Shown here: in pieces, positions 18,935 to 29,553 of the stretch | Position numbering within the stretch: position 1 is the stretch's first letter | How the letters are laid out: every line of letters starts with the position of its first letter | Source of the DNA: Nitrospira sp. | GTDB lineage: Bacteria; Nitrospirota; Nitrospiria; Nitrospirales; Nitrospiraceae | DNA length: 64,000 nucleotides | Assembly (NCBI GenBank): GCA_030123605.1 | Contig: CP126123.1 | Location: 1,716,001-1,780,000, forward strand | Direction of reading: 5' to 3' | Program-made: the position numbers and the translations under genes | The notes under the pieces: generated by a model | Seen by the model: the letters and a program-made list of their open reading frames with translations, nothing else | Told to the model about the DNA's origin: nothing | Databases searched by the model: none

Positions 18935-19011
18935 GCCCCCGTAGCTCAGTTGGATAGAGCAGCGGTTTCCTAAACCGCGGGTCGCACGTTCAATTCGTGT
19001 CGGGGGCACCA
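18935..19011 (+). tRNA. tRNA-Arg (CCU anticodon), integration target
   Basis: A cloverleaf folds from GCCCCCG (acceptor 5') to CGGGGGC plus A and encoded CCA. The D-arm is GCTC-AGTTGGATAGA-GC. The anticodon stem GCGGT/ACCGC holds loop TTCCTAA with anticodon CCT at 18969-18971. The T-arm is GCACG-TTCAATT-CGTGT. The integrase gene starts 6 bases beyond its 3' end, and the 3' part recurs at 26980-27025. Confidence 0.95.
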
Positions 19012-19012
19012 A
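18967..19012 (+). repeat. attL: 3' end of tRNA-Arg
   Basis: 46 bases from the anticodon loop through CCA plus one base. It matches 26980-27025 in 44 of 46 positions by eye; the two differences pair with each other in the T-stem. Confidence 0.88.
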
Positions 19013-19016
19013 TTTT

Positions 19017-20087
19017 TCAACAGGTTAGCGAAACCTGCTCCGGCCGAATCTCCGCTTGTGCTAAATTTGTGCTAAACGGCCTTCCCGCATCGAAAATCGC
19101 CACTCCATCCCGCAAACTTTCCGGATAATGGTGCGCATACCGCTGCGTCATCATCGGCGACTTATGCCCCAGAATCCGCTGGACCTTGTACAAGTCCACA
19201 CCCGCCTGCACCATGCGAGTCGCGCAGGTATGGCGCAGGTCATGAAACCGGAAATCCGACACGTGTCCATGCTTGAGCGCTAACCGGAAACTCCGTCGTA
19301 GGTTGGGAGCATCCAACGGTGTGCGTGCCGCGCTTGTAAACACTAACTCCGAATCCATGCGGCGACTACTGGCCTTGTTCTGAAGGGCCTGCACGAGCGT
19401 GTGACTGAGCGGAATCGTCCGCCGCTCCCCGCTCTTCGATTTAAACACCGTAGCGGTTCGTCGATTGAGGTCCACACCGGCCCATGTGAGATTCAGAATT
19501 TCCCCACAACGCATTCCGGTATGGATCGCGAACACGATCACTTCCCGTAACCACGGTGCTGAAGCCGCAAGGAGGCGTCGTTCCTCCTCACACGTCAGCC
19601 ATCGATCCCGCGTATTGTTCTCTCGTTCCATGGACACCCGGCAGACTGGATTGTCCTTGGTCCATTCCCATTCGCGACAGGCCAGATTGAAGGCCTTCTT
19701 CATCAGCGCCAATTCGCGATTGATCGTGGCCGGTGTGACCCCGTCCGCGTACCGTTTGTTCTTATAGGCGACGATTGTTTTGGGTGTCACGTGCTCCAAC
19801 TTGGGATTGCCAAAATGCGCGGTCAGATTCGTGACCATGTTCACATAGCGACGGTAGCCCGACCGTCGACTGGCATGCTCCCGCAAATACCGATCCATCA
19901 ACTCTCGGAATGTCCTGGCTTCCTCTTTGGGCTTGTCAAAGTACTTTCCTTCCACAATCTGCACCCTGACTTTACTGAGGATAGCTTCGGCCAACTTTTT
20001 GTCCGAGGTTTCGGTCGATCGCCGCACTTGCCGCCCTTGAAACGTAAATGACATCCACCAGATATTGTTCCGTTTAACGAGCCCCAT
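19017..20087 (-). CDS. int: Tyrosine recombinase (site-specific integrase)
   Basis: The 356-residue integrase catalyses recombination between the tRNA att site and the element. The start ATG at 20087 has a perfect ribosome site (aaggaggag). An N-terminal arm-binding domain (MGLVKRNNIWWMSFTFQGRQ) and a core-binding domain (TFRELMDRYLREHASRRSGY) precede the catalytic domain. Catalytic residues seen: Arg in HTGMRCGEILNLTW, His-x-x-Arg in FHDLRHTCATRMVQAGVD, His in RILGHKSPMMTQRYAHHYPE, and the nucleophile Tyr in RYAHHYPE. The 3' end abuts the tRNA, as usual for such elements. It overlaps the HTH gene by 14 bases, so the two are translated together. Confidence 0.93.
   Translation of the reverse strand: MGLVKRNNIWWMSFTFQGRQVRRSTETSDKKLAEAILSKVRVQIVEGKYFDKPKEEARTFRELMDRYLREHASRRSGYRRYVNMVTNLTAHFGNPKLEHVTPKTIVAYKNKRYADGVTPATINRELALMKKAFNLACREWEWTKDNPVCRVSMERENNTRDRWLTCEEERRLLAASAPWLREVIVFAIHTGMRCGEILNLTWAGVDLNRRTATVFKSKSGERRTIPLSHTLVQALQNKASSRRMDSELVFTSAARTPLDAPNLRRSFRLALKHGHVSDFRFHDLRHTCATRMVQAGVDLYKVQRILGHKSPMMTQRYAHHYPESLRDGVAIFDAGRPFSTNLAQAEIRPEQVSLTC
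19057..19075 (+). repeat. Candidate integrase arm-type site, left (tandem tgtgctaaa)
   Basis: The 19 bases tgtgctaaatttgtgctaa contain the 9-mer tgtgctaa[a] twice, 11 bases apart. The identical 19-mer recurs near attR at 26830-26848. They lie inside the integrase 3' end, 45 bases from attL. Confidence 0.5.
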
Positions 20088-20382
20088 GCTGCTCCTCCTT
20101 CGTGCGTGGGCTCGGTGTGATGGTTTCCCCGCCGCGAGTATAGACCTCGGGTTTCGCCGCTTCAATGAGTCGGTCGAGGTCGCGGGTGTCCTGGTGAGTT
20201 GGCGGTGAGAACGGCTTGCCGGGACTGGCTTCAAAGCTCTTCAGCCAGGCCTGGATCGCCTCAGGTTCAAAGCGGACGAGGCCGTGAATACGGCGGCAGG
20301 GAATCTTCTTCCGTGAGACCCAGAGATACAGTGTGGACGGTTTAATATTCAGCCAAGCGGAAAGCTCTTTGACGGTAAGCAT
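20074..20382 (-). CDS. Helix-turn-helix excisionase-like DNA-binding protein
   Basis: About 102 residues. The N-terminal winged-helix motif of the excisionase/MerR-like HTH_17 family is clear: MLTVKELSAWLNIKPSTLYL, then WVSRKKIPCRRIHGLVRFEP and EAIQAWL. A charged tail follows. The ATG at 20382 fits the family; a GTG four codons earlier is possible. It sits directly upstream of and overlapping the integrase, the usual place for a recombination directionality factor, so control of excision is the likely role (inference). Confidence 0.85.
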   Translation of the reverse strand: MLTVKELSAWLNIKPSTLYLWVSRKKIPCRRIHGLVRFEPEAIQAWLKSFEASPGKPFSPPTHQDTRDLDRLIEAAKPEVYTRGGETITPSPRTKEEQHGAR

Positions 20383-20847
20383 GTGCGGATACACCGGGGG
20401 AGTCTGACGACACCCCCAGTCCCCCTACCATGGGCTGCCCGCGTGACCGCCGGCAGACCGGTGAAACCGATTGGGTGGTTGCTTGAGCAAATTGCGGTGT
20501 CGGTCTTTCCACCGAGTGATGCCCCTGACAATTTCGTTCAGTAGCCATTCTTCCCCTCCAGGGGTGGCACAAATCACCGCCAACATCGGCGTCAGGGTGT
20601 CACTCACCCATCGTTTTACATTTTGCAGGGTCTGCACCTGCTTCTCCTGGGCCAATCGCCCCTTCTGAAATCCCTCCGTCAGGAGGGCATACCACTCCAA
20701 CACTGGAGCCCGGTACCGTTCTTCATCCTCGGCATCCTTCGGAATCTGCCGGAAATCCACATACGAGCGAAGCAAGCCGACCACCAACTCCTTCCAGTCG
20801 GCTTCGTCTAAACTCGCTAACGCTCTGGCACACTGTTCGGCCCGATC

Positions 20848-22266
20848 GAGCCACCGTCAAGAGGTGTGTAAAAGAACTTCAGGCGGCGATGTTTTTCGGC
20901 TGACGGCTCGCTTCGCTCCTCACCTGTCCTGATTGCTTCCGCACCCCGTCCGTAAACTTGCCTCCAGAGGCCACCAGGGGCAGCAGCTCCGTCGCATTGA
21001 GCCTTCTCCACGTCTTCTCGGCGACGGTGAGCATCTTCCAGATGATTGCCTTGGCGCTCTCGACCCGTTTGTAGCGGCGTGAGGCGTCCGTCCGAAGCCG
21101 CACGGCCGCGAAGGGTGACTCCACGATGTTCGTTGTTCTGAGGTGAATCCAGTGCTCTTTCGGGAAGGAATAGAACGTGACCATCCGGTCCCAGTCCCGC
21201 ACGAGCGTCTCCACGGCCTTCTGGTCCGTCTTGTTGTACGTGCGGACGAATTTGTCGCGCAGCTGCTCGCACTCGGCCTGGGTCTCGGCATAGGGCATCG
21301 CCTTGAGCAGCTCGGCCGCCTTCTGCTGCTCTTTCTTGGGCACCGCGTCCAAGACATTGGTGATCTTGTGATTCCAGCACCGCTGCTCCTTACCGGTGGG
21401 ATGGAGTTCCCCGAGAGCGGCCCAGATGCCAAGGTGTCCGTCAGCGACCGTGAGCTGCGGAAACTTCAGTCCACGCTCCCGCAGACTGCGCAGGACCTTC
21501 AGCCACGACTCCTTGCTCTCCCGCTCGCCGCTCTCGCAGGCCAGCACGATCTTTTTGCCGCTAGCGAGCGCTCCCACGATCGTCAGCAGCGCCGCCTTTC
21601 GGTCTTCGATCCCGGCCTTCACATACAGACCATCAGCCCACCAGTAGACGACCTCCAGGGCCGACACATCCCGCGTCTTCCAGGCCTCGTATTCCAGTTC
21701 GAATCGGGCCTTGAGTCGCTGGATGGAACTGGCCGACAGCGGTGCCCCCTCACCGAGCAGCCCCCTCAGAGCGAGTTCGAAATCCCCGCTTGAGAGCCCG
21801 TGCAGATATAGCTCCGGCAGCACCTCACCGACTTCCCGGGTGCGGCGCGTAAACAGCGGCAGCACCTTGCTCTTGAAGCGCTCCTCCAGGTCCCGAACTC
21901 TGGGGCGCCACACCGTCACCGTCCCGCAGCTCATCGAAACATGGCGAGGGTTTCCGTAGCCGTTCCGACTGCCCTTAGGCGGGTCCAGCGGGGACACCCG
22001 TTCCCGCCGCTCATGCCGTTGGCGGCCCAGGAACGTGGTCACCTCTTCCTCCAGGATGCGCTGGAGCTGGTCCTGAATCTGCCCTCTGGCCCACTGCTCC
22101 AGCGTGTCGTAACACACCTCGCTTGACTCGACCGCCTCGTGTCTGCTCTTCTCACGCATGGTGGCGTATCCTTTCCCCTCCGCTCCAACGGAGGCTTGGT
22201 TGGTTGATGTCCAACCGAAAGGTTACGCCGCCTTTATCCTATTTCCACACCTTCTGATAGTAGCTC
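20848..22266 (-). mobile_element. IS256-family insertion sequence, copy A (1419 bp)
   Basis: Imperfect terminal inverted repeats: left end gagccaccgtcaagaggtgt, right end (reverse) gagctactatcagaaggtgt. It is flanked by an 8-bp target duplication, gcccgatc, at 20840-20847 and 22267-22274. It is the same length as copy B (28135-29553) and encodes the same transposase. Confidence 0.93.
20879..22159 (-). CDS. IS256-family DDE transposase (copy A)
   Basis: The 426-residue transposase (Transposase_mut, PF00872 type) has an N-terminal zinc- or helix-rich DNA-binding part (LEQWARGQIQDQLQRILEEE), then GSRNGYGNPRHVSMSCGTVT. The catalytic core begins near VVYWWADGLYVKAGIEDRKA (first Asp) and continues with LTVADGHLGIWAAL (second Asp) and the IS256 signature QRCWNHKITNVLDAVPK. 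The catalytic Glu is probably in RTTNIVESPFAAVRLRT. It is intact and the same translation as copy B, so both IS copies are likely active or very recently moved. Confidence 0.95.
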   Translation of the reverse strand: MREKSRHEAVESSEVCYDTLEQWARGQIQDQLQRILEEEVTTFLGRQRHERRERVSPLDPPKGSRNGYGNPRHVSMSCGTVTVWRPRVRDLEERFKSKVLPLFTRRTREVGEVLPELYLHGLSSGDFELALRGLLGEGAPLSASSIQRLKARFELEYEAWKTRDVSALEVVYWWADGLYVKAGIEDRKAALLTIVGALASGKKIVLACESGERESKESWLKVLRSLRERGLKFPQLTVADGHLGIWAALGELHPTGKEQRCWNHKITNVLDAVPKKEQQKAAELLKAMPYAETQAECEQLRDKFVRTYNKTDQKAVETLVRDWDRMVTFYSFPKEHWIHLRTTNIVESPFAAVRLRTDASRRYKRVESAKAIIWKMLTVAEKTWRRLNATELLPLVASGGKFTDGVRKQSGQVRSEASRQPKNIAA

Positions 22267-22898
22267 GCCCGATCCTTCTTGAGCTCTAATTCCCATCGCG
22301 TCCCGTAGTCCTGATAGTGCTCTTGTCCTTTGCTCTGGAGTTCCAATCGCTTGTCATAAATGCGCAAGAGTGTCTGACTCTGCGGACTGCCGAAGTAGAT
22401 CGTCTCGCCCGTCGTCGCCCCGGTGCCGTGCGTCAGGTTCGAGACGATATGCCGGACCTGAGTGGCACGAGTTACACATTGGCCTGCCGATACCGCTGCT
22501 CGGATGGTCGCCATCGACACCGTGCCTGCTCGGTCATCCAACGCACAGTCGATGCGCGTCACGTGGCCTTGTTGGGCATGCACCCATTTGAGCAGGGTGC
22601 GAATTTGATCCAGTGTCAGGGCGGACGCGAGGCCGCCCGACAGATCCACATGGATTTCATTCGGACGCCGAGGAGCATTCGTACCTAATTTGCCGACCCC
22701 GCGCAGACCGTCAGTTCTCATCCACGACAAGGGATAGCCTCGGAACCCGCCTTTAGCCTTGCTCCAGTCTCCACCCAATACCCGCATCGTCTCTTGCGGA
22801 TTGCTGGCCAGGACCGTAAAGGCGAGCCAATCAATGGTGAGGGTGAAGCTCGAATCCATGGATTCTATCGAACTCCTGTACGGAGCGCTGTGGGTAGC

Positions 22899-22968
22899 GC
22901 CCCCGTGTTACCAAGACGGGGGCCATTCCGGTCCGCCCCGCAGCCTTCCGGCATGCGGCGCGGACCGG
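22899..22968. other. Double-hairpin region upstream of the rep/relaxase gene: candidate nicking origin
   Basis: Hairpin 1: gcccccgt (22899-22906) pairs perfectly with acgggggc (22916-22923), loop 9. Hairpin 2: ccggtccgc (22928-22936) pairs with gcggaccgg (22960-22968), and after one mismatch ccgca pairs with tgcgg, leaving an 11-base loop. It lies 39 bases upstream of the Rep_trans start codon, where rolling-circle origins (dso) or oriT of this family are found. Confidence 0.5.
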
Positions 22969-23003
22969 CATCACCTCTTGATGGAAGGCCGGATAGCACG
23001 TTC

Positions 23004-23252
23004 CTAGCGTCCCTCCGTGGTCGGTCGGACAAGCTTCTGTCTGACTACGCCAAAGGCCTTTTCTCCGACTTCTCTTGCCACGATCTTGATCGCCTCGGCC
23101 TTGCCATCCATCACCATGCTCATGAGGACCGCACCACGGACATACTTGGACACGGTCGTGCCTTCGTCCTGAGCACACCGCTCGATCAGTTTGCGTTCTT
23201 GGTCGGTGACCTTGAACTGTAGTGTTTCGGTCTTTGCGTCATCGGTCCGCAT
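23004..23252 (-). CDS. Ribbon-helix-helix protein, possible mobilization accessory factor or regulator
   Basis: The 82-residue protein opens with a ribbon-helix-helix pattern: KTETLQFKVTDQERKLIERC, then AQDEGTTVSKYVRGAVLMSM. The beta-strand TLQFKV and the DEGTTVSKYVR helix are typical of Arc/MetJ and of MobC-like relaxosome proteins. A strong ribosome site (gggaggagct) precedes the ATG at 23252. It lies upstream of the rep/relaxase on the same strand with the hairpins between, as expected for a relaxosome accessory protein. A plain autoregulator or antitoxin is the alternative. Confidence 0.75.
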   Translation of the reverse strand: MRTDDAKTETLQFKVTDQERKLIERCAQDEGTTVSKYVRGAVLMSMVMDGKAEAIKIVAREVGEKAFGVVRQKLVRPTTEGR

Positions 23253-23269
23253 AGCTCCTCCCTATTAAA

Positions 23270-23292
23270 TATATTATATAGTATATTATATA
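23270..23292. promoter_or_regulatory. Tandem 11-bp AT-only operator and likely promoter region
   Basis: tatattatata occurs at 23270-23280 and again at 23282-23292, a 12-bp period, 17 bases upstream of the ribbon-helix-helix start. It is strikingly AT-rich in GC-rich surroundings. Such proteins bind short tandem repeats, so autoregulation is likely. The sequence can also serve as a -10 region. Confidence 0.5.
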
Positions 23293-23526
23293 TGCGGCAA
23301 TATCAAGTTGCCTATTTTGACCTGGACTCACCATACACGGCGTTTCGGTCTTTTGTCGTATGCGGCAACCACATACACCTAAGATTGCTGGACGTCATAA
23401 CATCGGTAGGAATTCACCCTACCCCATATGATACGAGCCTTCCCCCCTGCGTAAGCTCCCCCTAAACTGCGACACTCAGTAAGGAGAACTTTCTGGCACA
23501 ATACGTCACCTAGCCAGGAGGTTCCC

Positions 23527-23793
23527 ATGCGTCAGTCAAAGTTCACCGAAACGCAGATTGTGTCGATCCTGAAAGAAGCGGATGCCGGCCGGCCGGTCAA
23601 TGAGATCTGGCGGCACTACGGCATCAGCTCCGCCACCTACTACAAGTGGAAGGCCAAGTACGGCGGGCTAGAGGCGTCGGATGTGAAGCGCCTCAAAGAG
23701 CTGGAGCACGAGAACAGCCGGCTCAAACGGATGTATGCCGATCTGTCGTTGGAGAATCTGGCCCTGAAGGATGTCATCGTAAAAAAGCTCTAG
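23527..23793 (+). CDS. IS3-family transposase OrfA
   Basis: The 88-residue HTH protein (transposase_8 type) begins MRQSKFTETQIVSILKEADA, with helix-turn-helix in EIWRHYGISSATYYKWKAKY. A C-terminal leucine zipper follows (LKELEHENSRLKRMYADLSL). The end contains the slippery heptamer AAAAAAG at 23781-23787, where a -1 shift leads into OrfB before the TAG at 23791. Confidence 0.92.
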   Translation: MRQSKFTETQIVSILKEADAGRPVNEIWRHYGISSATYYKWKAKYGGLEASDVKRLKELEHENSRLKRMYADLSLENLALKDVIVKKL

Positions 23794-24644
23794 GGCCTGC
23801 TGAACGGCGGGAGGTCGTCACGCATCTCGTGACGGTGAACGGTCTTCCGGTTCAGCGGGCCTGTCGGGCAGTGGGATTGCATCGGGCCACGTACTATCGG
23901 CCGCTCGTGGATTGGGCCCGGCGGGATGCGCCAGTGATCGCGGCGTTGACCACGCTCGTGGCGGCCAAGAGTCGGTGGGGGTTCTGGAAATGTTGTGATC
24001 GACTCCGACTAGATGGGCGTCCCTGGAACCATAAGCGCCTCTGGCGGGTGTACTGTCAGTTGCGGCTGAATTTGCCACGGCGGACCAAGAAGCGGCTGCC
24101 GGTTCGCCTGCGCCAACCGCTGGTCGTGGTACCCCAGCCGAATACCACGTGGGCTGTGGACTTCATGAGCGACACGCTCTATGGCGGCCGCCGATTTCGC
24201 ACCTTAAATGTGCTGGACGAAGGCGTGCGGGAAGGCTTGGCGATCGAAGTCGACACGTCGCTGCCCGCGGATCGGGTGATTCGCGTCTTGGAGCAAGTGG
24301 TGGCCTGGCGCGGACGACCGCAGGCCATTCGGCTCGACAATGGCCCGGAACTCATTGCAGAGCGCTTTATGACCTGGTGTGCCGACCGCGGGATTGAGCT
24401 GCGGTACATCCAACCCGGAAAACCGGATCAGAATGCCTTCATCGAGCGGTTCAATCGAACGTACCGCACTGAAGTCCTCAATGCCTATGTGTTCGAGTCA
24501 CTCGAGCAGGTCCGAGAGATCACCGCGGAATGGTTGCAGAGTTACAACGAGGAGCGGCCCCATGACGCGCTGGCGGGGCTTCCGCCGACGCTGTATCGGG
24601 CCCAACTGGAAGCCAGAAGTTCTCCATTGGCAGTGTCGCCTTGA
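23787..24644 (+). CDS. IS3-family transposase OrfB (made by -1 frameshift)
   Basis: An rve integrase-core catalytic protein read in the -1 frame after AAAAAAG; the fusion runs DVIVKK-ALGPAERREVVTHL. DDE residues: first Asp in TTWAVDFMSDTLYGG, second in AIRLDNGPELIAERF, Glu in PDQNAFIERFNRTYRTEVL. The C-terminus LQSYNEERPHDALAGLPP is typical of IS3. The frame is open above 23787 as well, but no good independent start is seen, so OrfAB fusion is the expected active form. No internal stop: the element looks intact. Confidence 0.9.
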   Translation, partial: ALGPAERREVVTHLVTVNGLPVQRACRAVGLHRATYYRPLVDWARRDAPVIAALTTLVAAKSRWGFWKCCDRLRLDGRPWNHKRLWRVYCQLRLNLPRRTKKRLPVRLRQPLVVVPQPNTTWAVDFMSDTLYGGRRFRTLNVLDEGVREGLAIEVDTSLPADRVIRVLEQVVAWRGRPQAIRLDNGPELIAERFMTWCADRGIELRYIQPGKPDQNAFIERFNRTYRTEVLNAYVFESLEQVREITAEWLQSYNEERPHDALAGLPPTLYRAQLEARSSPLAVSP

Positions 24645-24810
24645 CGGGGGAGCTTACGCCTGAAGCTCAGTAGCTGGCTCACAACCCGCCCTGTAGATTC
24701 ACACGCAGCATTCGATATTTCGTGAGATAACGCACATTCAGTCGTTCGAATAATAAGACGAATGAGCCAATTAACTCTCAGCTCATCGGTAATTACAAAG
24801 GAGAAACAGA

Positions 24811-25182
24811 ATGAATAAGCTGTCTCGTTGGTCCACTCTGACTCTAATGAGCTGTGTAATCCTGACCGGGTGTAGTTCCACCGGAAATCTCGGAATTGTG
24901 ACAAAACCTTCTGCCGATAACGCCGAGCGTCTCCGCTCAGGCGTGAAGTTCGAAGAACTCGGTCCAGTAGAAGGTTCATCCTGCCGGCATTTTGTGCTCG
25001 CCGTGATCCCTTTCGGAGATGGCAGCTTCTCTAAAGCAGTGGAGGATGCGCTGTCCGCTCGAGGCGGAGATGCATTAATCAATGTCACGGTGACGAATAG
25101 CCTCTATGGCTTCATTCCGATCTATAACGTCTACACCTTCACCTGTACGTCAGTCAGCGGCATTGCGGTTAAATACAAATGA
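24811..25182 (+). CDS. Small lipoprotein, TRL-like
   Basis: The 123-residue product has a good ribosome site (aaaggagaaac) and a lipoprotein signal ending in the lipobox VILTGCSSTG. The mature part contains GVKFEELGPVEGSSCRHFVL, then DALSARGGDALINVTVTNS. This pattern of small lipoproteins (TRL/DUF6567-like) is often found near tRNA loci. DNA here is visibly less GC-rich than the flanking chromosome, consistent with cargo acquired with the element. It is followed by a second lipoprotein gene 22 bases on. Role unknown. Confidence 0.75.
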   Translation: MNKLSRWSTLTLMSCVILTGCSSTGNLGIVTKPSADNAERLRSGVKFEELGPVEGSSCRHFVLAVIPFGDGSFSKAVEDALSARGGDALINVTVTNSLYGFIPIYNVYTFTCTSVSGIAVKYK

Positions 25183-25204
25183 CCTTGAAGCGCGGGAGTG
25201 GCCG

Positions 25205-25807
25205 ATGAGATTGATAAAAATAGGTCTTCAGGTAACTGTGTTGTCGTTGTCGTGCCTGGCCACAGGCTGCATGATGGTACGAGGTGACCAACTTCAACCA
25301 CCCACGCAATGGCCACCTGACAAGCCTCTACAAATGAAATCGATAGCCCTTGCGGTGAAAAGTCAATTTGAATCCAGCGGCCAATCGAAGCAAAACGAAG
25401 CAGCCATGCATCTCATTGAAGGGCAGGCGCAGAAGGCATATGCGGATTCGGCGCTTTTCTCTCATGTCTCGGTGGCGAAGGAACGCGCGGATCTGTTTGC
25501 CGAGATTCAAATTACGGAAGATGGGAATAAGGGCCTAGCAGGGATCTCCGGCTTTATAAGCGGGTTTACCATGGGAATCATTCCAGGTTACGCCCATGCG
25601 ACACTGACAAGTCAGACGGTCTTCCGAAACAACGCCGGTGAGGAAATTGGGACAATCAAGAAATCAGAATCCATATCATTTTGGATTCAACTCTTTCTGG
25701 TGGCTGCCATGCCGTTCCGAGATGAACCGAAGGTGGTCGTGCGGGACGTGTATTATGATCTGAACCGCGCAACTTTAGCCGAGGCTCGATCCAAGGGATA
25801 CTTCTGA
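25205..25807 (+). CDS. Lipoprotein of unknown function, element cargo
   Basis: The 200-residue product starts at the ATG 25205 (gggag upstream). The signal MRLIKIGLQVTVLSLSCLAT leads to lipobox LATGC. A soluble domain follows with KSIALAVKSQFESSGQSKQN and AQKAYADSALFSHVSVAKER. A Gly-rich hydrophobic hairpin (GLAGISGFISGFTMGIIPGY) resembles the inserted segment of GNA1162/DUF4136-like lipoproteins. A second hydrophobic stretch is ISFWIQLFLVAAMPF. It probably forms an operon with the preceding lipoprotein. Unrecognised family. Confidence 0.7.
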   Translation: MRLIKIGLQVTVLSLSCLATGCMMVRGDQLQPPTQWPPDKPLQMKSIALAVKSQFESSGQSKQNEAAMHLIEGQAQKAYADSALFSHVSVAKERADLFAEIQITEDGNKGLAGISGFISGFTMGIIPGYAHATLTSQTVFRNNAGEEIGTIKKSESISFWIQLFLVAAMPFRDEPKVVVRDVYYDLNRATLAEARSKGYF

Positions 25808-25998
25808 TCAGACAATGGAGGCCTTCCCAGGAGCACTCTCCATCATCGCTCCGCCTATGCGTGAGCAGACCGACTCCTTCCGGAGGAGGTGTTGGTGCTT
25901 CCACTAGGAACCGGATACCCAGGAGATGCCGGGAAATCAACGCTGCATGGTGGCTTGTGTGATCGTTGTGAAGAGACAGTCTCGATGTGGGGATGCGG

Positions 25999-26415
25999 TT
26001 AGGCTGACCGTTTCCAGCTTTCGACGCTGAGGCCAGCGATGCGCTGGAAGTGAGCGAGATTGTTCGTGATCAAGGGTCGCTGCGCTTCCAAGGCGGTGGC
26101 AGCAATGAGGAGGTCCGCATCGGGCAGCAAGGCTCCCTGCCGATGGAGGTCACCGTATAATGTCGCCGCACGTTCCACGACTTGGTCGGTGATCGGGAGA
26201 ATGAGACTCGCCTGGCATAGCAACGTGAAGGCCGCCTCTTGAGTCCGCGCCTGTTTCGCCTTCAGTCCCCGCAGGAGTTCATAACGCGTGATGATCGAGA
26301 AGGCAAGCCGCTGGTGCTCCGCCAGATAATTCCGCACCCGCTGCACGACGAGAGGATGTTGCTTGAGGAGTTCTGAGAGAATATCGGTATCGAGCAGAAC
26401 GGCGGGTTGCGGCAT
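25999..26415 (-). CDS. VapC-type PIN-domain toxin ribonuclease
   Basis: The 138-residue PIN nuclease has the acidic residues of the active site: LLDTDILSELL near the N-terminus, Glu in ITRYELLRG, and Asp pair in LLPDADLLIAATALE, followed by the C-terminal TNNLAHFQRIAGLSVESW. VapC toxins cleave tRNA or rRNA and are held inactive by the antitoxin encoded just upstream; start and stop overlap by one base (taatg). On a mobile element such a pair usually acts in maintenance. Confidence 0.9.
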   Translation of the reverse strand: MPQPAVLLDTDILSELLKQHPLVVQRVRNYLAEHQRLAFSIITRYELLRGLKAKQARTQEAAFTLLCQASLILPITDQVVERAATLYGDLHRQGALLPDADLLIAATALEAQRPLITNNLAHFQRIAGLSVESWKRSA

Positions 26416-26651
26416 TAGGCAGCCGGTTCACGGAAGAAGTGCTGTCGATCTAATGCGATGGACTCAACCTGCGTGATCTCGTCAGCACTCAGCCCTTGAT
26501 AAACCTGTGCGGCACGCCGCAGAACTTCGTCCGTACCGAGCGCAAGGTCGGTATCGACCGTCACTTGTACTTCCGCGTCATCGGCCAGCGCGAGAGGTTC
26601 CAACGGCTGTAACACTCCGTCATGATAACGAGCTTTGATCGTTTGTCGCAT
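26415..26651 (-). CDS. Antitoxin of the AF2212/DUF104 type (VapB-like)
   Basis: The start ATG at 26651 has gggaggg upstream. About 78 residues: RQTIKARYHDGVLQPLEPLA, then DDAEVQVTVDT, the short beta-strand DNA-binding motif of AF2212-like antitoxins. A helical toxin-binding tail follows (DEVLRRAAQVYQGLSADEIT). It overlaps the PIN toxin gene by one base. The pair is expected to repress its own promoter. Confidence 0.87.
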   Translation of the reverse strand: MRQTIKARYHDGVLQPLEPLALADDAEVQVTVDTDLALGTDEVLRRAAQVYQGLSADEITQVESIALDRQHFFREPAA

Positions 26652-26979
26652 TGGAAAACCCTCCCATGCATTCACCTGTACGCGGCACTGCATTGGTTGA
26701 CCCCATTCTACTCAAACCGCGTCCAAATCTCACCACTTGCCGCAAGATTGCACATCATTCTGTCAAGAGAGTTCGGGCTATCGCTGTCTCTAACTGACTG
26801 TCTCACGGAAGGGGTTCATCCCAAAACACTGTGCTAAATTTGTGCTAAGAATTTTCAAAACCCACCCATACCCCTCGAATCGATCGAATCAGTGGAATGC
26901 ATGCAAGCCACTGTTTTCGTAGTAAAAACGGGGAAACCATTTGAAACACCGAGCATTCTAAAAACTGTCCTGGCCTGAT
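26652..26979. other. Element end without a gene, holding the right arm-type site
   Basis: No convincing coding frame. It holds the VapBC promoter side and the 19-bp tandem motif at 26830-26848. Its composition is less GC-rich than the chromosome. Confidence 0.6.
26830..26848 (+). repeat. Candidate integrase arm-type site, right (tandem tgtgctaaa)
   Basis: Identical 19-mer to 19057-19075, same orientation, 131 bases inside attR. Confidence 0.5.
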
Positions 26980-27025
26980 TCCTAAACCGCGGGTCGTACG
27001 TTCAATTCGTATCGGGGGCACCAAC
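26980..27025 (+). repeat. attR: partial tRNA-Arg 3' end with compensatory T-stem change
   Basis: Copy of the tRNA 3' part beginning ttcctaaaccgcgggtcg. It differs from attL only at two paired T-stem positions (gtacg/cgtat against gcacg/cgtgt). It has no 5' half, so it is not a tRNA gene. Confidence 0.88.
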
Positions 27026-27300
27026 TTCATCCCCGCTCCAGTCGCGGCACAGGCTGCACTGGACGCGGGGATTCTTATTTTCAGCGCGCTCCCCACTTAC
27101 CTTCAACCGATCACATCCGACCAAAAACCGTCAGTTGGGGTGGCCTTGGCAATCGGTGGCCCAAGCTCAGGAAACACGTGAGGTTCTTGCCTGCTCTGGC
27201 AACGATGGGTTTTGGTCGTCTGGATGTTGCCCGAGCGCTCACGACCATCGAGATCACTTCGCCGCGAGAGGGGCAGGTAATGAAGATGGCCTGATCCCTC

Positions 27301-28134: not shown

Positions 28135-29553
28135 GAGCCACCGTCAAGAGGTGTGTAAAAGAACTTCAGGCGGCGATGTTTTTCGGCTGACGGCTCGCTT
28201 CGCTCCTCACCTGTCCTGATTGCTTCCGCACCCCGTCCGTAAACTTGCCTCCAGAGGCCACCAGGGGCAGCAGCTCCGTCGCATTGAGCCTTCTCCACGT
28301 CTTCTCGGCGACGGTGAGCATCTTCCAGATGATTGCCTTGGCGCTCTCGACCCGTTTGTAGCGGCGTGAGGCGTCCGTCCGAAGCCGCACGGCCGCGAAG
28401 GGTGACTCCACGATGTTCGTTGTTCTGAGGTGAATCCAGTGCTCTTTCGGGAAGGAATAGAACGTGACCATCCGGTCCCAGTCCCGCACGAGCGTCTCCA
28501 CGGCCTTCTGGTCCGTCTTGTTGTACGTGCGGACGAATTTGTCGCGCAGCTGCTCGCACTCGGCCTGGGTCTCGGCATAGGGCATCGCCTTGAGCAGCTC
28601 GGCCGCCTTCTGCTGCTCTTTCTTGGGCACCGCGTCCAAGACATTGGTGATCTTGTGATTCCAGCACCGCTGCTCCTTACCGGTGGGATGGAGTTCCCCG
28701 AGAGCGGCCCAGATGCCAAGGTGTCCGTCAGCGACCGTGAGCTGCGGAAACTTCAGTCCACGCTCCCGCAGACTGCGCAGGACCTTCAGCCACGACTCCT
28801 TGCTCTCCCGCTCGCCGCTCTCGCAGGCCAGCACGATCTTTTTGCCGCTAGCGAGCGCTCCCACGATCGTCAGCAGCGCCGCCTTTCGGTCTTCGATCCC
28901 GGCCTTCACATACAGACCATCAGCCCACCAGTAGACGACCTCCAGGGCCGACACATCCCGCGTCTTCCAGGCCTCGTATTCCAGTTCGAATCGGGCCTTG
29001 AGTCGCTGGATGGAACTGGCCGACAGCGGTGCCCCCTCACCGAGCAGCCCCCTCAGAGCGAGTTCGAAATCCCCGCTTGAGAGCCCGTGCAGATATAGCT
29101 CCGGCAGCACCTCACCGACTTCCCGGGTGCGGCGCGTAAACAGCGGCAGCACCTTGCTCTTGAAGCGCTCCTCCAGGTCCCGAACTCTGGGGCGCCACAC
29201 CGTCACCGTCCCGCAGCTCATCGAAACATGGCGAGGGTTTCCGTAGCCGTTCCGACTGCCCTTAGGCGGGTCCAGCGGGGACACCCGTTCCCGCCGCTCA
29301 TGCCGTTGGCGGCCCAGGAACGTGGTCACCTCTTCCTCCAGGATGCGCTGGAGCTGGTCCTGAATCTGCCCTCTGGCCCACTGCTCCAGCGTGTCGTAAC
29401 ACACCTCGCTTGACTCGACCGCCTCGTGTCTGCTCTTCTCACGCATGGTGGCGTATCCTTTCCCCTCCGCTCCAACGGAGGCTTGGTTGGTTGATGTCCA
29501 ACCGAAAGGTTACGCCGCCTTTATCCTATTTCCACACCTTCTGATAGTAGCTC
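28135..29553 (-). mobile_element. IS256-family insertion sequence, copy B (1419 bp)
   Basis: Same length, ends and reading frames as copy A. Target duplication attgcaat at 28127-28134 and 29554-29561. Inserted in an intergenic site. Confidence 0.94.
28166..29446 (-). CDS. IS256-family DDE transposase (copy B)
   Basis: The translation is identical to the transposase at 20879-22159 over all 426 residues, including the QRCWNHKITNVLDAVPK signature. See that entry for domains. Identity at this level indicates very recent transposition within this genome. Confidence 0.95.
   Translation of the reverse strand: MREKSRHEAVESSEVCYDTLEQWARGQIQDQLQRILEEEVTTFLGRQRHERRERVSPLDPPKGSRNGYGNPRHVSMSCGTVTVWRPRVRDLEERFKSKVLPLFTRRTREVGEVLPELYLHGLSSGDFELALRGLLGEGAPLSASSIQRLKARFELEYEAWKTRDVSALEVVYWWADGLYVKAGIEDRKAALLTIVGALASGKKIVLACESGERESKESWLKVLRSLRERGLKFPQLTVADGHLGIWAALGELHPTGKEQRCWNHKITNVLDAVPKKEQQKAAELLKAMPYAETQAECEQLRDKFVRTYNKTDQKAVETLVRDWDRMVTFYSFPKEHWIHLRTTNIVESPFAAVRLRTDASRRYKRVESAKAIIWKMLTVAEKTWRRLNATELLPLVASGGKFTDGVRKQSGQVRSEASRQPKNIAA

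Follow-up and report, generated by a model that had tools for sequence, protein, structure and literature searches.

A Zot-less, inovirus-derived integrative element at a Nitrospira tRNA-Arg gene, and a possible family of filamentous-phage satellites

The stretch of DNA analysed here (the window) comprises 64,000 nt of the single 4.32-Mb contig CP126123.1 of Nitrospira sp. (positions 1,716,001-1,780,000), and it contains an 8-kb island bracketed by two copies of the 3' end of a tRNA-Arg(CCU) gene. The island is a member, broken by insertion sequences (IS), of a mobile integrative lineage that is derived from inoviruses, lacks Zot and is under selection. On the minus strand, from the cargo toward the tRNA, the order is a vapB-like gene, vapC, a ribbon-helix-helix (RHH) gene, two hairpins, the replication gene rep, an excisionase-like gene (xis) and the integrase gene (int); the plus strand carries two lipoprotein-like genes. 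The features are given below in window coordinates (HTH, helix-turn-helix; ORF, open reading frame; att, attachment site). L008 is a second element of this lineage in the same genome, and L122 is an intact twin of the island in another Nitrospira genome.

18935..19011, plus strand: tRNA-Arg(CCT) found by ARAGORN, the integration target, whose 3' end is the att core
18967..19015, no strand: int-proximal att repeat, a 49-nt direct repeat of the tRNA 3' end
19017..20090, minus strand: tyrosine integrase (PF00589, 135.5 bits; probable ATG start at 20090, the ORF reaching 20234)
19057..19075, plus strand: arm-type repeat TGTGCTAAATTTGTGCTAA on the int side, with the same letters at 26830-26848
20074..20394, minus strand: HTH_17 excisionase-like gene overlapping int (PF12728, 43.8 bits; phrog_66 excisionase)
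20425..20847, minus strand: C-terminal part of rep, 97% identical to residues 196-334 of the L008 rep
20848..22266, minus strand: IS256-type insertion splitting rep (Transposase_mut at 20879-22159, PF00872, 181 bits; target duplication GCCCGATC)
22267..22859, minus strand: N-terminal part of rep with the catalytic motifs TRIDCALDD, IYDK and RWELELKKDRA (PF02486, 82 bits; L008 twin aligned to 4cij)
22899..22923, minus strand: origin hairpin GCCCCCGT-CTTGGTAAC-ACGGGGGC, predicted nick between loop G and T; at the same place upstream of rep in inoviruses of this bacterial family
22925..22971, minus strand: second GC-rich hairpin beside the origin, a candidate for Rep binding or a packaging role
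23004..23252, minus strand: RHH gene (PF21983, NikA-like, 32 bits)
about 23449..24659, plus strand: IS3-type insertion with terminal inverted repeats (transposase-like ORFs at 23527-23793 and 23646-24644)
24811..25182, plus strand: cargo, small lipoprotein-like gene (weak TRL-like match below the cut-off; also in L122)
25106..25807, plus strand: cargo, lipoprotein-like gene (probable start near 25204; also in L122)
25999..26415, minus strand: cargo, VapC-like PIN toxin (PF01850, 53.5 bits)
26415..26693, minus strand: cargo, AF2212-like antitoxin overlapping vapC (PF01954, 37.8 bits)
26830..26848, plus strand: arm-type repeat on the cargo side, identical to 19057-19075
26979..27027, no strand: distal att repeat, 94% identical to 18967-19015, where the match to L122 stops

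An earlier, sequence-only reading had described a compact integrative element between the two copies of the tRNA end, and this is borne out. The 49-nt att pair is the longest direct repeat of the region and flanks the predicted gene set; the integrase, the overlapping HTH excisionase-like gene, the RHH protein, the hairpins and the VapBC-like cargo are all confirmed inside it, the genes by profile matches. The IS3-type element is a second insertion in the island that the same reading had not recorded. The arm-type repeat, together with the motif GGTTTCCCC, is kept at the distal ends of most elements of the lineage, at all six tRNA types used. Just inside the distal end of relatives, again across the six tRNA types, a tandem TTAGCACA motif occurs with GGTTTCCCC, a recurrence that fits the expectation for integrase arm sites.

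The split rep gene had been reconstructed from its two parts as a 335-residue Rep_trans protein. PF02486 matches both halves (82 bits for the N-terminal and 21 bits for the C-terminal one), and the same genome has three further intact rep copies (L006, L007 and L008). The L008 rep, at a tRNA-Glu, is a near-twin of the island's and is uninterrupted over 335 aa, so the reconstruction was correct. The N-terminal half also matches PF05144, a filamentous-phage replication protein domain (26.5 bits against a cut-off of 21.7), and the nearest deposited phage reps are Inoviridae records that carry ZOT genes. The nearest solved structure is 4cij, a replication protein that we take to be RepSTK1, with which the acidic, tyrosine (Y168) and RWELE-type motifs align.

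A family-wide search of 175 genomes found rep in 71. Class A, to which the island belongs, has about 50 copies of 70-97% identity, nearly all in the island's own genus; they include a relative in Candidatus Nitrospira defluvii (FP929003), in agreement with the probable Nitrospira host suggested earlier. Class B (about 50-52% identity) and class C (about 42%) are inovirus reps, and in a phylum sample of 296 genomes, the matches listed at E < 1e-20 all fell within this family. Class B and C reps are followed by a pIII-like gene and then by zot. In contrast, every class A locus examined with enough flank has the order rep-xis-int, with short gaps and with zot and pIII absent between the genes. 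No class A element contains Zot, the pI/Zot morphogenesis ATPase expected of a complete Inoviridae phage and possessed by classes B and C. The RHH gene lies at the same position upstream of rep in about half of the class A elements.

In the Rep tree, 31 Zot-less reps cluster, and class B, which bears Zot, joins them (99/97); class C, likewise with Zot, and the Inoviridae fall outside this joint group. The class A Rep is nested among the reps of Zot-bearing phages, from which this lineage is derived. The Zot-less cluster has a support of 93/91, and the direction of change depends on outgroup rooting, which is limited by long outgroup branches. Two more Zot-less reps (L156 and L163) sit within Zot-bearing groups, the pattern of recent zot losses. 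The class A rep has diverged by about 50% from the local inovirus reps, and its median dN/dS is 0.063 at a median dS of 0.57. Such strong purifying selection argues that these elements are not decaying prophages; they keep a replication module under selection and have lost the structural genes, which is one of the features expected of an inovirus satellite. Five class A contigs (L048, L056, L064, L067 and L071) are filed under Nitrosospira, Nitrosomonas and Sumerlaeaceae assemblies. At 93-97% identity to the copies in Nitrospira, they probably reflect misbinning and not transfer between phyla.

Twenty-eight class A loci could be delimited: a tRNA stands at the int end, and its 3' end recurs 1.7-12.2 kb upstream of rep, mostly with 24 of 24 identical bases. 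The elements measure about 4.1-14.7 kb and occupy tRNA-Arg, Thr, Val, Glu, Gly and Met genes; the smallest (about 4.1-4.6 kb) consist of rep, xis, int and a few genes, and L008 is about 12.9 kb long. That the island's unit is present some 50 times in relatives with exact ends is far beyond chance. Its 5.4-kb twin L122, in genome G039, has the same cargo. The two align from 18935, exactly where the tRNA begins, to 27033, with 91-97% identity, and the flanks do not align; elements of this lineage have spread between Nitrospira hosts. In G037, the closest relative judged by its flanks, another class A element occupies this spot and the right flank is 88-95% identical, and several congeners have a tRNA-Arg without an integrase. 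A strictly empty site with the island's own two flanks was not found in relatives, the nearest, G037, being occupied. The site variation anticipated in the sequence-only reading is nonetheless present, since tRNA-Arg is occupied, differently occupied or free, and integrase, att repeats at a tRNA and variable occupancy together identify an integrative tRNA-site element. Two loci (L041 and L143) have two distal att copies upstream of rep, which suggests tandem or successive insertions at one tRNA.

The origin hairpin is conserved in class A as GCCCCCGT-CTTGGTAAC-ACGGGGGC, apart from rare variants. It lies about 40-64 nt before rep and is adjoined by the second GC-rich hairpin, and the two also occur in this order in classes B and C. 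Of 12 predicted pairs, 4 show both-sided changes, each of them in the second hairpin, and the invariant core of the origin stem is uninformative on covariation. In CTXphi, the origin has its nick between G and T, within the loop of the second hairpin (PMC4439123), and the conserved loop GTAA of the class A origin would agree with G/T nicking of this type. Similar origin hairpins occur in Inoviridae, before rep in a Lactobacillaceae Rep_trans plasmid, and in Tn916. Therefore, this type of hairpin marks rolling-circle initiation and not phage ancestry. Classes B and C have in addition a large hairpin (cctccttct..GCCCCACCC-loop-GGGTGGGGC..gaaggagg) downstream of zot, about 5.2-5.7 kb after the start of rep (7.5 kb in L006), which is a candidate packaging signal of these inoviruses. 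L156, with a class B rep and xis-int, has lost zot and retains the GCCCCACCC hairpin as in its relatives; it is apparently a separate, recent origin of a satellite-like form.

Potential helpers are present in the genus, as Zot was found in 16 of 29 congeneric genomes. In the island's own genome, the L006 and L007 reps are followed by a 422-aa protein, called pIII-like from its position and make-up as it matches no family, and then by Zot (PF05707, 101.8 bits; phrog_197, 172 bits), which identifies both loci as inovirus prophages. In two genomes (L050 and L053/L138), a class A element shares its tRNA-Arg(CCT) with a Zot inovirus, the two being integrated on opposite sides. L006 (about 3655635-3677190 of the contig) and L007 (about 3822741-3846550 of the contig) apparently span 21-24 kb between tRNA repeats, which is large for inoviruses; the distal repeat of L007 is only 20 nt. 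Both carry restriction-modification-like and other cargo upstream of rep, and identical 503-aa ORFs of reverse-transcriptase type (group II intron-like) at the same insertion place (L006:2800-4311, L007:3400-4911).

How such elements might move is the question on which the readings of the island differ. The sequence-only reading had proposed a Rep_trans/MOB_T mobilizable element. In such an element, Rep would be the relaxase, the RHH protein an accessory protein and the hairpin an oriT for a type IV secretion system (T4SS) acting in trans. PF02486 is indeed common to MOB_T, the origin hairpin of Tn916 belongs to the same type, and the RHH protein matches a NikA-like profile (over 37 residues, 5 bits above the cut-off) and, weakly, MbpA (25.8 of 90 bits). 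RHH proteins are frequently repressors or antitoxins, and about half of the elements lack this one. MOB_T is defined by an N-terminal HTH together with PF02486 (Soler 2019, PMC6499999). The Tn916 control, Orf20, has HTH_3, Rol_Rep_N and Rep_trans, whereas a profile search found neither an HTH nor Rol_Rep_N in the island and L008 Rep. Against NCBIfam MobT, Rep scores 58.7 bits where the cut-off is 600, much like the 50.1 bits of an inovirus Rep from this genome. There is no conjugation machinery within the element. VirB4 (PF03135) is missing from 28 of the 29 congeneric genomes and VirD4/T4CP (PF02534) was found in 6, with 0 in the island's own genome, distant VirB4 types not having been searched. 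Finally, the closest relatives of Rep are the reps of Zot-carrying filamentous phages. Given this architecture, the curated score, the T4SS census and the Rep tree, we set the MOB_T identity aside and regard transfer of this kind as very unlikely; what stands of the proposal is a tRNA-integrated mobile element with a Rep_trans initiator.

We lean, with some confidence, toward class A being a family of inovirus-derived satellites that moves as helper-packaged single-stranded DNA (ssDNA). The replication and integration core descends from integrative inoviruses of Nitrospiraceae, and the entire morphogenesis block (pIII-like, Zot/pI and, by position, coat genes) has been lost. In this scenario, Int and Xis would excise an intact element at its tRNA att site, and Rep would nick the hairpin loop that lies 40-64 nt before its gene, so that rolling-circle synthesis would yield circular ssDNA. 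A co-resident or superinfecting Zot-bearing inovirus could then extrude this ssDNA as a filament, and the satellite would re-integrate in a new host, bringing its cargo, which is VapBC in the island and, in relatives, Lamassu, TIR, Fic and others. The nicking, excision and helper-inovirus packaging are steps that we infer, and the island copy is now disabled by the insertion in rep. Our main reasons for this reading are the near absence of conjugation machinery, the frequency of Zot inoviruses in the genus and a conserved rolling-circle module, which suggests an exporter. Our confidence goes no further because no packaging signal was identified and Zot and class A do not clearly co-occur.

Several results weigh against helper packaging. 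No packaging signal was identified in class A: its minimal elements share no perfect hairpin other than the origin, and the GCCCCACCC hairpin is absent from the class, so it was rejected as a signal common to all classes. The origin hairpin was dropped as proof of inovirus descent, given its counterparts in Tn916 and the Lactobacillaceae plasmid. Zot is absent from 9 of the 22 congeneric genomes that carry class A, and its presence in 13 of the 22 carriers and in 3 of the 7 non-carriers is not informative on co-occurrence. IMG/VR viral contigs scanned with the rep and origin patterns gave no match to either class A or class B. The lack of an identified packaging signal, the Zot-less carriers and the minimal units of rep, xis, int and few genes would suit an inovirus-derived integrative plasmid, that is, an integrating rolling-circle replicon spread by transformation, vesicles or generalized transduction with no dedicated helper. 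We consider this alternative possible yet rather doubtful, as Zot inoviruses are common in the genus, and a conserved initiator and origin together with spread between hosts are most simply explained by an exported ssDNA form. A decayed prophage remnant whose own mobility is gone would account for the two IS elements that interrupt the island and recalls the separate zot losses of L156 and L163. For the lineage as a whole, however, it is contradicted by some 50 copies in which int, xis and rep are mostly intact, by purifying selection on rep, and by exact att repeats and a shared element with unrelated flanks. It is very unlikely as an explanation of the lineage, but it fits the present state of the island copy.

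The satellite reading can be compared with several known systems. RS1, the satellite of CTXphi in Vibrio cholerae, needs a helper filament and, like class A, is a filamentous-phage replication module (with RstA as its rep) without morphogenesis genes. RS1 and CTXphi share with class A a phage-encoded rolling-circle initiator, the CTXphi origin being nicked G/T in a hairpin loop (PMC4439123). However, RS1 uses host Xer recombination (PMC4439123), whereas class A has its own tyrosine integrase and excisionase and tRNA sites. RS1 is also a near-copy of its helper's module with an anti-repressor, while class A has a strongly diverged rep and large variable cargo, and RS1 depends on its helper, where the use of one by class A is inferred. 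A plasmid of Schmid 2024 is reportedly described as an inovirus satellite and, as a non-phage element proposed to be packaged by an inovirus, resembles class A; going by the descriptions in citing papers, it is autonomous, whereas class A is integrative with a phage-derived rep. The integrative inoviruses of Nitrospiraceae (classes B and C) have in common with class A the Rep_trans protein, the origin and second hairpin, tRNA sites, cargo upstream of rep and, in some, related xis and int, but they have Zot, the pIII-like protein and the GCCCCACCC hairpin, none of which class A has. MOB_T elements (Tn916, ICEBs1 and ICESt3) share the PF02486 catalytic domain and an upstream C-run/G-run hairpin with TAACA in the loop; they differ from class A, which lacks the HTH and Rol_Rep_N, falls below the MobT cut-off and resides in hosts nearly all without a T4SS. 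P4-like satellites and phage-inducible chromosomal islands (PICIs) are, like the satellites proposed here, phage satellites with an integrase. Their helpers are tailed phages, and packaging or regulatory genes of the P4/PICI type were not seen in class A.

Cargo was surveyed across the 28 delimited elements, in 82 proteins. The families matched were, among others, LmuA/LmuB (Lamassu), TIR domains, Fic, AbiTii, NACHT-associated helices, Mokosh-like proteins and PIN toxins. P4-like satellites carry anti-phage cargo (PMC9122126), which the defence cargo of class A resembles. The fuller proposal, which we regard as evenly balanced between right and wrong, is that class A elements are long-lived, family-wide integrative filamentous-phage satellites with interchangeable anti-phage islands, which reach at least six tRNA sites via integrase change and are extruded by resident inoviruses, as an ssDNA counterpart of P4 and PICIs.

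To our knowledge, filamentous-phage satellites are known from few cases, chiefly RS1 and TLC of Vibrio cholerae, and no model for such satellites exists in the standard satellite finder. A literature search, which leaves out most subscription journals, found no paper on Nitrospira inoviruses or such satellites. If the satellite reading is right, a widespread, selected and cargo-bearing lineage in the main nitrite-oxidizing bacteria would show that inoviruses, as tailed phages do, sustain a satellite ecology, and Nitrospira, whose genomes almost never carry a T4SS, would have a route of gene exchange. Such a lineage would also caution against taking every PF02486 protein of Gram-negative bacteria for a MOB_T relaxase. 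Because some genomes, of the G039 or G020 type, hold an intact class A element together with a Zot prophage, helper packaging is open to a direct test.

Two further observations concern the neighbourhood of these elements. Just beyond the island, at 28135-29553, lies a second IS256-type copy, identical over 1419 bp to the one that splits rep. At L080 (5663-12815), a 7.1-kb element flanks the same tRNA-Arg on its 5' side, with the 42-nt 5' half of the tRNA as its boundary; it encodes a tyrosine integrase, a serine resolvase and a ParB-like protein, without rep or zot.

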